Origin: Okibacterium fritillariae
GTDB taxonomy: Bacteria; Actinomycetota; Actinomycetes; Actinomycetales; Microbacteriaceae
Direction: 5' to 3'
DNA: 64,000 nucleotides
Assembly (NCBI RefSeq): GCF_900167575.1
Contig: NZ_FUZP01000001.1
Location: forward strand, 1,364,001-1,428,000
The position numbers were made by a program, and so were the translations under genes. The notes below the pieces were generated by a model. It ran no database searches. It worked only from the letters and a program-made list of their open reading frames with translations, and was not told where the DNA came from. Shown piece after piece: positions 3,050 through 32,453 of this stretch (the first letter of the stretch is position 1; every line of letters begins with the position of its first letter).

Positions 3050-3549
3050 TGGCGCTCGAGCACGACTACTTCGGCTTGATCGAGGAGCAGCCGGGTGGTG
3101 GGCTCTACTGGTCCGAATCGGTCGAGGTGGGCGATCAGTATGTCGACCTGTCGATGAGCGTTCCGCGCGGCGAGGGCGTCAGCGACGAAGATCTCGACAT
3201 CGCTGCGGCGCTGCTGCAGGCCCTCGAGGGGCTCGATCTGCGGGCCCGCGAGGATATGCTGTCGGCCGTCGACGATCGCGAGAGCGACGTGTCGGTGTTC
3301 GTCGTGCAGGCGGTCGAAGAATACGGCGACGGCATCGAGGACCTCTTCGTCGACCACTCGGGCGACCTCGACGTCGACCTCATCCGTTCCCTCGTGCTCA
3401 CGCGCGTCGCCGTGCACCCCTCGGCATCCTCCGACACCGAGGCCTTCGTCGACCTCGAGTTCGCCCTCGACCCGGATAGCTCCGACCTCGCGCTCCTCGT
3501 TTCGCTCAGCCGCTCGGTCACACCTGTTTCGATCACGATCGTCGAATAG
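3049..3549 (+). CDS. Small acidic conserved protein (DUF2004-like)
   Basis: A 166-residue acidic protein starting at a GTG whose first base is the last base of the ftsY stop codon, so it is probably translationally coupled to ftsY. It begins with EHDYFGLIEEQPGGGLYWSE and resembles short actinobacterial DUF2004 proteins, which often start with a similar HxFG motif. There is no signal peptide or membrane segment. The function is unknown. The family name is from memory of the N-terminal motif and should be checked. It converges with lipA, whose stop lies 11 bases away. Confidence 0.7.
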   Translation: MALEHDYFGLIEEQPGGGLYWSESVEVGDQYVDLSMSVPRGEGVSDEDLDIAAALLQALEGLDLRAREDMLSAVDDRESDVSVFVVQAVEEYGDGIEDLFVDHSGDLDVDLIRSLVLTRVAVHPSASSDTEAFVDLEFALDPDSSDLALLVSLSRSVTPVSITIVE

Positions 3550-3559
3550 CGACCTTCGT

Positions 3560-4663
3560 TCACACGCCCTGCAAGAACACCGGCTCGCCGTCGGTGCGGT
3601 CGAGGTGTGCGAGGTCGTCCGGCAGTACGCGTCCCTTGGCCCGCATCGACTGTGCCCACAGCCGACCCGCGCGATAGCTCGACCGCACGAGCGGCCCGGC
3701 CAGCGCGCCCGAGAAACCGATCTCGTCGGCCTCGCCCTTGATCTCGAGAAACTCCTCGGGCGGCAGCCAGCGGGCGACGGGCAGGTGCCGCGGCGTCGGC
3801 CGTAGGTATTGCGTGATGGTGATGATGTCCGTTCCCGCGTCATGCAGATCGCGCAGCGCCTGCGAGATCTCGTGCCGCTCCTCGCCCATGCCGAGGATCA
3901 GGTTGGACTTCGTGATCAGCCCGGCCGACCGCGCCTGCGTGAGCACATCGAGCGAGCGCTCGTATCGGAACGCCGGACGGATGCGCTTGAAGATGCGCGG
4001 CACGGTCTCGACGTTGTGCGCGAACACCTCGGGCCGCGCCTCGAACACCTCGCCCAGCAGGTCGGGGTTTCCCGAGAAGTCGGTGGCGAGAATCTCGACG
4101 CCCGTCCCCGGGTTCTCGGCGTGGATGCGACGCACGGTTTCGGCGTGCAGCCAAGCCCCCTCGTCGGGCAGGTCGTCGCGGGCAACCCCCGTCACGGTCG
4201 CGTACCGCAATTGCATCGCTTTCACGGATGCCGCCACCCGACGTGGCTCGTCGGTGTCATAGTCGGCGGGCTTGCCCGTATCGATCTGGCAGAAGTCGCA
4301 CCGCCTCGTGCACTGCGAACCGCCGATCAGGAACGTCGCCTCGCGGTCCTCCCAACACTCATAGATGTTCGGGCATCCGGCTTCCTGGCACACCGTGTGC
4401 AGGTCCTCGCTCTTCACGAGGCTCTGCAGCTGCTGGTACTCCGGCCCCATGCGCGCCTTCGTCTTGATCCAGGCGGGCTTGCGCTCGATCGGCGTCTCGG
4501 CGTTGCGCACTTCGAGCCGCAGCAGCTTGCGCCCATTCGCGCCTGTCGCCGAACTCGCCGTGCCCGCAGTCGCCATGCCGCTCGTTTCCGCAGCGCCCGC
4601 CGTTCCGCAACCCGTCGCCGCAGCCCCGTGCGGCGCCCCGTTGCTCGTCCCGCACGCGCTCAT
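3560..4663 (-). CDS. lipA: LipA, lipoyl synthase
   Basis: LipA is a radical-SAM enzyme that inserts two sulfurs into octanoyl groups on lipoyl domains. Both iron-sulfur clusters are visible: [12 protein letters not shown] for the auxiliary cluster and CTRRCDFC for the SAM cluster. [11 protein letters not shown]-type sequence and the C-terminal LVRSSYRA region, whose serine ligates the auxiliary cluster, are also present. The start chosen is the ATG overlapping the lipB stop as ATGA. This gives 367 residues with an extra Ala/Gly/Thr-rich N-terminal stretch of about 45 residues before the conserved [17 protein letters not shown], so an internal start is possible. lipB lies immediately upstream in the same operon. 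Confidence 0.96.
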
Positions 4664-29295: not shown

Positions 29296-29539
29296 GGGTG
29301 CCCCTTCGGCGCGAACGGCCGAAGAGACCCCGGCCGCAATATCGCTTCATCGTAGCGCGCGGCACGAGGAGGTCATGCGCAGAACGGACCCCGTTGCGTA
29401 TGTGCCTCCGCTCACTTTCTAGACGCCTCTCAGACTGTGCCGCTAGTCTGGAATGTCTGTGTTCGTCGCCGTCCGCCCGTCACGAACCCCTGTCGACGGG
29501 TGCGAGAACCCCCGCAACGGCGACCCAGGAGGAGATTTC

Positions 29540-31333
29540 GTGCGATTCGTACTCGCTATAGCCGCGTTCGTCGTGGCCGCCGCCATGATCATCACGGGCA
29601 TCGCTCAGCGCACCGTGTTCCTGGGTCCGCCGACCCAGACGGTCGATGTGAAGGTGTCGGGCGAGCTGCCCTACACGGTCATCGACGGCACCACGCTGAA
29701 CGCCAACCCGGGTCAGCAGACGGTGACGCTGGCCGGCTCGTCGAAGGCCTATCTGGCCTACGGCCGCACGAGCGACGTGAAGGCCTGGCTGGGGGAGTCG
29801 AAGTACAACCTGCTCACGCTCGACGACGAGAACAAGCTCGTGTCCGACGTCGTGACGCCGAAGCCCGCCGAGACATCGACCGGTTCGAACTCAGGGGATG
29901 AAGCATCCACCGATGCCGATGCGACCTCCGATGTCACCGACCCCGCCGGGAGCGACCTGTGGCTCGGCGAGTTCACCGAAGACCGCGCATTGATCGCACC
30001 CATGAGCGTTCCCGACGACGTCAGCGTGCTGATCGCTTCGGATGGCTCGGAGCCCGCCCCCTCGACCGTCAAACTCTCGTGGCCGCTCGATAACGCCACA
30101 CCGTGGGCCGGCCCGCTGATCGTCGGCGGAATCATCCTGCTGGCCGTCGGCCTCGTGCTCTACCTGCTGGGCCTGCGCCACATGCGCCGCTCGCGGGGCC
30201 CCCGCCGCAAGTCGCTGCCGCCCCTCGACGACCAGAAGAGGCTGCCGCGCGCTCCCAAGGCTCGGCGGCCCAAGGCCGCACGTCGCAATGCCCTGATCGC
30301 CGTCATCCCGGTCGCCCTCGTCTCGTCGCTGGCCCTCAGCGGGTGCAGCCCGAGCTTCTGGCCGCAGTTGCCGGCCCAGAGTGCCACGCCGACCAGTACC
30401 TCGACCGATGCGGCCGCCACGGATGACAGCCAACCCGCGCCCGTCGTCAGCGTGCCGCAGATCGAGCGCATCGTCTCGAAGATCTCGGCCGTCGTGGCCG
30501 ACGCCGACGAGCAGAAGAGCGCCGATGTCGCAGCCACGCGCCTGACCGGGCCCGCGCTCGACGAGCGCAAAGCGAACTACCAGATCCGTTCGAAGAACGC
30601 CGATGCGCAGGCGACGGCCGCGATCCCCGCGTCGCCCATCACGCTGACGCTGCCCCAGGCATCCGACACGTGGCCGCGCACCGTGATGACCGTCATCCAG
30701 GACGCCGACGACACGAGCGTCGCTCCGACGCTGCTCGTGCTGACGCAGGAGACGCCGCGCGCCAACTATCTCATCGACTACTCGGTGCGGCTCGAGCCCC
30801 AGGCCCAGATTCCGGATGTCGCGCCCGCCACCATCGGCGCCTCCCAGATTCCGCCGGACTCGAGCTTCCTGCTGCTCGCCCCCGACAAGATCGCCGAGGC
30901 CTATGCCGACGTGCTCGCCAACGGGGATAGCTCTCAGTACGCCGCCCAGTTCGCCGCCGAGGGTGACACGCTGCGCACCCAGGTGTCGGAAGACCGCGAG
31001 AAGAAGAAGGCCGACCTGCCCGACACGGCGTCGATCGAGTTCGCCACGAAGGCGGGCTCCGGCCCGGCGCTGGCTCTCGCGACGAACGACTCGGGCGCCA
31101 TCATCGCCGTCAACGTGACCGACTCCGAGACCGTCAAGCCGGTCGAAGAGGGCGCGAGCGTGAAGACATCCGGAGCCGTCGCGTCCCTGAGCGGTCTCAC
31201 CGAGACGAAGAAGGGTGTCACGAGCACCTATGGCGACCAGTTGCTGTTCTACGTGCCGCCGACCGGGAGCACGGACAAGATCCGCCTGCTCGGCTTCAGC
31301 CAGGGGCTCGTGAGCGCCACCGAACTGCCGTAA
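29540..31333 (+). CDS. Two-module membrane/lipoprotein-like protein, unknown function
   Basis: A 597-residue protein with an N-terminal membrane helix (2-22), an external domain (23-188), a second helix (189-213), a very basic cytoplasmic loop (214-249), and then a third hydrophobic segment (250-267) ending in LSGC, a textbook lipobox with Cys269. A second external domain (270-597) follows. It looks like a membrane protein fused to a lipoprotein precursor. I do not recognise either external domain. The GTG at 29540 was chosen because AGGAGGAG lies five bases upstream and the membrane helix starts there; the frame continues to 29453. The thioredoxin-like gene follows at 49 bases. Confidence 0.8.
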   Translation: MRFVLAIAAFVVAAAMIITGIAQRTVFLGPPTQTVDVKVSGELPYTVIDGTTLNANPGQQTVTLAGSSKAYLAYGRTSDVKAWLGESKYNLLTLDDENKLVSDVVTPKPAETSTGSNSGDEASTDADATSDVTDPAGSDLWLGEFTEDRALIAPMSVPDDVSVLIASDGSEPAPSTVKLSWPLDNATPWAGPLIVGGIILLAVGLVLYLLGLRHMRRSRGPRRKSLPPLDDQKRLPRAPKARRPKAARRNALIAVIPVALVSSLALSGCSPSFWPQLPAQSATPTSTSTDAAATDDSQPAPVVSVPQIERIVSKISAVVADADEQKSADVAATRLTGPALDERKANYQIRSKNADAQATAAIPASPITLTLPQASDTWPRTVMTVIQDADDTSVAPTLLVLTQETPRANYLIDYSVRLEPQAQIPDVAPATIGASQIPPDSSFLLLAPDKIAEAYADVLANGDSSQYAAQFAAEGDTLRTQVSEDREKKKADLPDTASIEFATKAGSGPALALATNDSGAIIAVNVTDSETVKPVEEGASVKTSGAVASLSGLTETKKGVTSTYGDQLLFYVPPTGSTDKIRLLGFSQGLVSATELP

Positions 31334-31382: not shown

Positions 31383-32453
31383 ATGGCCAATCTCGATGTG
31401 AACCCTGCCGCTCTGCGCGGAGCCGTCGACCTGTCGGGGCTCGTCAACCGGGCGAACGCTCAGGCGGCCGCACAGGCCACGGGCGCGACGAACGGTGCCG
31501 GAGCCGCCGCGACGGGTGCCGGGGCTCCCACGGGCGCCGCAGGGCAGGCAGCGGCGGGCGGCACTGCCGTGGCCGGCCAGCCCGGTGCCGCTGGTGCCGC
31601 TGGTGCCGTCATCGAGCTGCCCGGGCTCGTCTTCGATGGAACCGACGAGAACTTCACCCAGTTCCTCGACCTGTCGGCTCAGGTTCCCGTCATCGTCGAC
31701 CTGTGGGCCGAGTGGTGCCAGCCGTGTAAGCAGCTGTCGCCCATTCTCGACAAGCTCGTCGCCGAATTCGGCGGCCGGTTCGTGCTCGTCAAGGTCGACG
31801 TCGACCAGAACCCTCAGCTGACGCAGGCGTTCCAGGCACAGTCCATCCCGACCGTCGCGGCCGTCATCGGCGGGCGCCCGCTGCAGCTGTTCCAGGGCGC
31901 CATCCCCGAGCCCCAGGTGCGCCAGGTGTTCGAGCAGGTTCTCGAGGCTGCCGCGCAGAGCGGTGTCTCGGGTTCGGTCACCGTCGTGGGTGCCGCCGAG
32001 GGTGGCGCGGATGCCGCAGCCGCCCCCGAGGAACCGCCGCTGCCGCCGCTGCACCAGGAGGCCTACGACGCGATCGACCAGGGCGACTACCCGGCCGCCA
32101 TTCGCGCCTACGAGAAGGCCATCGCGCAGAACCCCACCGACAAGATGGCGCACGCCGGTCTCGCCCAGGTGAGCCTGCTGCACCGTTTGAACGGGAAGAC
32201 GCTCGACGAGATCCGCTCGGCCGCCGCGCAGAACCCCGAAGACCTCGGCGCCCAGCTCGACGTCGCCGACCTCGACCTCTCGGGTGGGCATGTCGAGGAT
32301 GCCTTCGACCGTCTGCTCACGCTCTTCCCCGAGCAGGATGCCGACGGGAAGAACACCGTCCGCGCGCGTTTGCTGCAGTTGTTCGAGGTCGTCGGGCTCG
32401 ACGACCCGCGGGTCGCGATTGCGCGAGGACGCCTCACCAACCTGCTGTTCTAG
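31383..32453 (+). CDS. CnoX/YbbN-like thioredoxin-TPR protein
   Basis: A 356-residue protein with a thioredoxin fold followed by TPR-like helices, the architecture of the CnoX/YbbN co-chaperone that holds unfolded proteins under oxidative stress. The active site is WCQPC (111-115), so unlike E. coli CnoX it keeps both cysteines. Residues 25-78 are an Ala/Gly/Thr/Pro linker. The C-terminal half begins with PLHQEAYDAIDQGDYPAAIRAYEKAI, a TPR signature. It starts after a GGAGG site and ends before a bidirectional terminator. Confidence 0.92.
   Translation: MANLDVNPAALRGAVDLSGLVNRANAQAAAQATGATNGAGAAATGAGAPTGAAGQAAAGGTAVAGQPGAAGAAGAVIELPGLVFDGTDENFTQFLDLSAQVPVIVDLWAEWCQPCKQLSPILDKLVAEFGGRFVLVKVDVDQNPQLTQAFQAQSIPTVAAVIGGRPLQLFQGAIPEPQVRQVFEQVLEAAAQSGVSGSVTVVGAAEGGADAAAAPEEPPLPPLHQEAYDAIDQGDYPAAIRAYEKAIAQNPTDKMAHAGLAQVSLLHRLNGKTLDEIRSAAAQNPEDLGAQLDVADLDLSGGHVEDAFDRLLTLFPEQDADGKNTVRARLLQLFEVVGLDDPRVAIARGRLTNLLF

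Follow-up and report, generated by a model that had tools for sequence, protein, structure and literature searches.

Can one gene encode both a membrane protein and a lipoprotein, the two being parted at a signal peptidase II site that lies inside the chain? The question is raised by a gene of Okibacterium fritillariae, which we analyzed within a window of 64,000 nt (assembly GCF_900167575.1, contig NZ_FUZP01000001.1, positions 1,364,001-1,428,000, forward strand); all coordinates below are those of the window. The first-pass annotation had described two membrane helices followed by a basic loop and a third hydrophobic segment with LSGC, ending at Cys269, and this anatomy was confirmed by both hydropathy and predicted helices. 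The gene and its surroundings comprise the following features.

29527..29534, + strand: Shine-Dalgarno-like aggaggag ahead of the GTG start (sequence reading)
29540..31333, + strand: whole gene, a putative fused membrane protein and lipoprotein precursor of 597 aa (ORF translation)
29543..29614, + strand: first transmembrane segment (TM1), residues 2-25 (hydropathy, predicted helix)
29630..30097, + strand: first domain, residues 31-186, mostly predicted strands (model; homologous to separate N-half genes)
30107..30193, + strand: second transmembrane segment (TM2), residues 190-218 (hydropathy, predicted helix)
30170..30292, + strand: end of TM2 and basic loop, residues 211-251, candidate n-region of the internal signal (16 K/R against 2 D/E)
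30293..30343, + strand: third hydrophobic segment, residues 252-268, ending in LSG, candidate h-region of the internal signal (hydropathy, model)
30344..30346, + strand: codon of Cys269, the proposed lipidated residue and first after the cut (cysteine column; A-x-A in cysteine-less members)
30347..30433, + strand: linker, residues 270-298, mostly predicted disordered (pLDDT <50 for 268-292)
30434..31330, + strand: lipoprotein half, residues 299-597, a relative of the SCO2278 family lipoprotein, possibly two NTF2-like domains (profile, model)
31383..32453, + strand: thioredoxin-TPR gene (PF00085 and PF14561), a conserved neighbor (Pfam, position in relatives)

The gene begins with a GTG codon with aggagg close 5' of it, and the assigned start is backed by the conservation of Met1-Arg2 among relatives. 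Hydrophobic windows of 19 residues fall within residues 1-28, 187-214 and 250-271, and the structure model predicts helices at residues 2-25, 190-218 and 255-267, from which we infer a topology that would place the first domain (residues 31-186) outside the membrane. The third segment ends in LALSGC, and Cys269 is the only cysteine of the protein. The window protein has a lipobox (LSGC) with cysteine at +1, preceded by a basic n-region and an h-region, as a lipoprotein does; an N-terminal signal peptide is absent, and the hydrophobic part of the signal begins at about residue 250, after two transmembrane segments. The AlphaFold model of the full protein (mean pLDDT 87.2) falls below 50 at residues 116-129, in parts of 226-252 and at 268-292, and these stretches suggest two folded domains connected by a flexible joint across the proposed cut site. 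The hydrophobicity of the third segment would also suffice for a transmembrane helix. The main rival to cleavage is an uncut fusion with three permanent helices, in which the outer domains would remain on one chain and the cysteine would be modified without cleavage or used otherwise.

The gene was matched in 149 of 150 genomes of the same family, which we take to be the Microbacteriaceae since the 80 named relatives, retained out of 387, comprise genera of the Microbacteriaceae together with metagenome bins, a few of these carrying broader or different labels. Among the named relatives, Leifsonia sp. ALI-44-B is closest (98%), and the one genome without a match, G012, is 82% complete. An alignment of 144 members was assembled from 143 of the 149 matching genomes and G284, which lies outside the 150; G014, G015, G070, G088 and G143 are absent from its rows, G032 was dropped, and G107 contributes an N-terminal fragment only. 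Both halves share one open frame in 143 of the 144 aligned members, the remaining one being G107, which ends at a contig end. An apparent split in G032 (L031, ~3480-3560) was rejected and taken as a misassembly, as a later stretch of the gene is duplicated inside TM2; G107, from the same genus, continues in a single frame past the joint until its contig ends. The fused form is retained even in the 1.4 Mb, 99% complete genomes G010 and G092. Its near-universal occurrence in one frame indicates that the gene belongs to the core of the family, and such constancy also lends something to the uncut fusion, for which the single chain itself might matter.

Conservation extends to the features of the putative internal signal. 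Column 269 holds cysteine in 135 of the 144 aligned members, and in 121 of these 135 it is the sole cysteine of the protein. The pattern [LVI][ASTVIG][GAS]C fits 126 of the 135 cysteine-bearing members, the other nine having M, A, G or F at -3. Lipobox patterns are short, and one might suppose that the cysteine follows the third helix by chance and is meaningless; its retention in so many members, mostly as the only cysteine, contradicts this supposition directly and leaves it hardly any credibility. Net charge over the 15 residues preceding the third segment is +2 or higher in 142 of the 144 members. A point against a lipoprotein-type signal is that the region between aligned positions 212 and 251 encloses 28 to 251 residues, while the n-regions of ordinary lipoproteins are short. 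Four members (L043, L066, L181, L182) carry long acidic inserts in this loop, yet have a basic stretch (WRRPRG..) directly before the third segment.

The first-pass annotation had held that conservation of the protein without the cysteine would speak against its proposal. Such proteins do occur, in nine of the 144 members (L028, L065, L067, L125, L136, L160, L177, L179 and L184), and to that extent the objection stands; what offsets it is that all nine present an A-x-A motif at the same spot. Within -4 to +18 of the column, A-x-A not followed by proline is found in 9/9 cysteine-less and 31/135 cysteine-bearing members (Fisher p 5e-6, for a window set after the sequences had been viewed and for rows that are related to one another). 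A looser pattern, [AVST]-x-A, gives a weaker contrast (9/9 versus 73/135, p 0.010). In a FastTree phylogeny of both domains that excludes the joint, the losses of the cysteine number six independent events, and the probability that all six would carry A-x-A at the 31/135 base rate is 1.5e-4; a sign test over independent pairs has too few pairs and is underpowered (median p 0.125). The window protein itself has no A-x-A between -4 and +18 and so lacks the signal peptidase I site of an LtaS-type protein.

Families for Lgt (PF01790) and Lsp (PF01252) were detected in 14 of the 14 genomes tested, including that of the window (G000) and those of all nine cysteine-less members, indicating that the cysteine losses are not generally due to lost machinery; in G101 the sole Lsp match is interrupted by one in-frame stop. 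The presence of A-x-A in all nine cysteine-less members suggests that the cut is more constant than the lipid, and on the simplest reading of these comparisons the cut at the column-269 site would be kept while the enzyme that makes it can change. A plain transmembrane helix, as the uncut fusion supposes, would have no need of these motifs.

The first-pass annotation had proposed a search for relatives in which the two halves are separate genes, and such relatives were found. Profiles of each half, built from alignments A4 and A5, were searched against 246 genomes of the class; this census scored 12 and 9 candidates per genome, and the resulting counts are lower bounds. The N-half and C-half profiles each match at least 73 of the 246 genomes, and a tally of the two match lists places both halves in at least 44. 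They share one open frame in at least 32 class genomes (12 from f1, 1 from f2, 1 from f6, 17 from f25 and 1 from f32, the last being G331, a weak case) and occupy separate, neighboring frames in at least nine of the 246 (G179, G197, G324, G304, G375, G156, G163, G175 and G262). Among the matches listed, the halves lie on different contigs in three genomes (G190, G260, G290), the C half occurs alone in 29 (f22 and f24), and the N half occurs alone, or as a protein with a related domain, in another 29.

The junctions of seven split pairs were read, revealing four ATGA, one GTGA and one TTGA overlap and one TAG abutting an ATG; the remaining two pairs, G324 and G262, appear as separate frames. 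At all seven junctions the C-half gene begins with a lipoprotein-type signal and a lipobox near its start, with alanine at -3 in L094, and the internal signal of the fused protein can thus be seen to occupy the place of an N-terminal signal in these relatives. The signal of one of these separate lipoproteins, L099 (G375), includes a twin-arginine pair, and export in that lineage might proceed through Tat. That separate-gene relatives provide the C half with a signal of its own also counts against the uncut fusion, which we consider unlikely.

That stop and start codons overlap or abut in the split relatives brings to mind a nested gene, in which the lipoprotein would be translated from an internal start in the basic loop, the full-length chain being minor or uncut. 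An in-frame ATG does lie between TM2 and the third segment in 99 of the 144 aligned members, but the other 45 have none, and just 18 of the 144 have a Shine-Dalgarno-like site to go with an ATG or GTG. In the window protein the sole candidate, an ATG where TM2 ends, lacks such a site. We therefore regard a nested start as very improbable, and cleavage of the full-length chain before Cys269 as the preferred reading.

Fused forms occur in other lineages of the class as well. A tree of 36 C-half rows rejects a single clade for the 21 fused rows (p-AU 0.0137), and although several branches are long, the well-supported ones force at least two changes between fused and split states, whichever the direction (fusion or fission). 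Fused proteins of f25 have an internal lipobox (LTGC, LAGC, VTGC or VTAC) in all 15 genomes read, of 17. The fused protein of G151 (f2) has an alanine-rich, signal-peptidase-I-like end at which cysteine is absent, and G366 (f6) has two fused copies with LAGC in each. These two paralogs (L101, 647-5173) flank a thioredoxin-TPR gene, and on the tree the second falls with f25, on a long branch. Besides split pairs, f32 has two more distant fused forms: L331, which carries LLGGC, and L332, whose C-half match is weak and which presents VQSC, no standard lipobox, after an RRSFL stretch.

The thioredoxin-TPR gene lies downstream of the fused gene on the same strand in all 80 named relatives, its match beginning no more than 600 bases away in 73, and a divergent gene for an AI-2E-type transporter lies upstream in 74 of the 80. 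A thioredoxin-TPR gene is likewise near all nine split pairs, adjoining them upstream or downstream in eight and lying ~2 kb off in L094; in L099 the match is limited to the TPR part. It also adjoins the fused gene in G151 and has a fused copy on either side in G366. Examination of four f25, two f24 and two f22 loci did not reveal it. These data suggest that the halves are tied to the thioredoxin-TPR protein in many lineages, if not in all, and both products may act together with it in the envelope.

The statement of the first-pass annotation that the two external domains are not recognized held for Pfam and has to be amended for the C half. In Pfam, no family reaches its cut-off in the window protein, matches to Phage_holin_3_6 and TgpA_N were set aside as below theirs, and relatives gave only scattered weak hits. 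Sequence searches of the PDB named neither half, one returning no match and the other a best E of 0.035. The C half shows a sub-threshold relationship to the SCO2278 family lipoproteins (NCBIfam NF053531): its score is 53.5 bits where the cut-off is 210 (E 1.8e-15), with residues 302-593 aligned to profile positions 31-317 of 320. Every member of alignment A5 (15 of 15) matches NF053531 at E ≤0.001, which indicates homology over the mature domain. In the literature searched, SCO2278 is mentioned once, in a figure legend of PMC5733086, as a hypothetical protein.

The C-half model (pLDDT 95.4, pTM 0.92) was compared with known structures. The best structural neighbor of its first part is PARC6 (Z 7.6, rmsd 2.5, 109 aligned), and its second part reaches Z 4.6 to 5.2 against TraM, IcmL-like, CagV and ketosteroid isomerase chains. 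These neighbors are of the NTF2-like type, all of them below Z 8, and suggest that the C half is possibly composed of two NTF2-like domains. Foldseek returned nothing at E ≤0.001 for the full model or the C half, the latter reaching no better than 0.02, and CDC50 matches to the N half were set aside as ~60 residues scattered over 1-215. A domain related to the first domain is carried by L330 together with DUF4389 (Pfam). The first domain appears to recur in further multi-transmembrane proteins (L328, L329, L334, L335 and L336), whose likeness was judged by eye only.

Taken together, the split relatives, the conservation of the cysteine and the A-x-A sites support the original claim that one gene would yield a membrane fragment and a lipoprotein. 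From these sequence comparisons we put at roughly 0.8 the probability that the chain is matured in this way, with Cys269 lipidated and the cut made by signal peptidase II. In the inserted precursor, TM1 and TM2 would span the membrane, with the first domain exposed on the outer side; the basic loop would remain cytoplasmic and orient the third segment with its N-terminus inside, like a lipoprotein signal peptide. Lgt would then lipidate Cys269 and signal peptidase II would cut before it, giving a membrane fragment of ~28 kDa (residues 1-268) and a lipoprotein of ~34 kDa (residues 269-597) in 1:1 amounts, and in the six cysteine-less lineages signal peptidase I would probably make the equivalent cut. 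The broader account of a family cut by signal peptidase II, with more than one joining of coupled genes and six lineages of one family switched to signal peptidase I, we hold with less assurance, although on balance we favor it.

If this reading is true, a conserved envelope protein present throughout the family is in fact two proteins, and lipoprotein processing is not confined to N-terminal signals, so that lipoprotein inventories drawn from N-termini would be incomplete and predictors that consider the N-terminus only would miss proteins with internal signals of this kind. The fused protein would also be a convenient means of testing whether Lgt and Lsp act on signals within chains that already bear helices. 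Cleavage behind preceding helices is established for signal peptidase I, as in LtaS; in the open-access literature searched, as judged by titles and abstracts, no report of an internal signal peptidase II site was found.

The closest known systems resemble the present protein in part. The FbcH cytochrome b/c1 precursor of Bradyrhizobium is one gene that gives two proteins through an internal signal peptide and has separate-gene relatives elsewhere; it differs from the present protein in that signal peptidase I is used and the products belong to a respiratory complex. Among actinobacterial proteins with DUF4389, L330 shares the related first domain, but these proteins have another multi-transmembrane architecture and no C half above the search threshold. 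The alignment of the C half covers the greater part of the profile for the SCO2278 family (NF053531), whose proteins stand alone with a lipobox near the start in f24 and f22, f24 being taken as Streptomyces-like since its members pass the NF053531 cut-off; the C half of the window protein, in contrast, is fused behind a membrane protein. In LtaS of Staphylococcus aureus, as described in PMC11323550, the signal peptidase I SpsB cuts after five transmembrane helices, and there too a signal peptidase acting behind earlier helices parts an N-terminal membrane portion from a C-terminal domain on the outside. In that description the enzyme is signal peptidase I and a lipid is not mentioned, whereas the present family has a lipobox cysteine in 135 of 144 members and separate-gene relatives; as far as that description goes, its nine cysteine-less members would be closer to LtaS than those that bear the cysteine.
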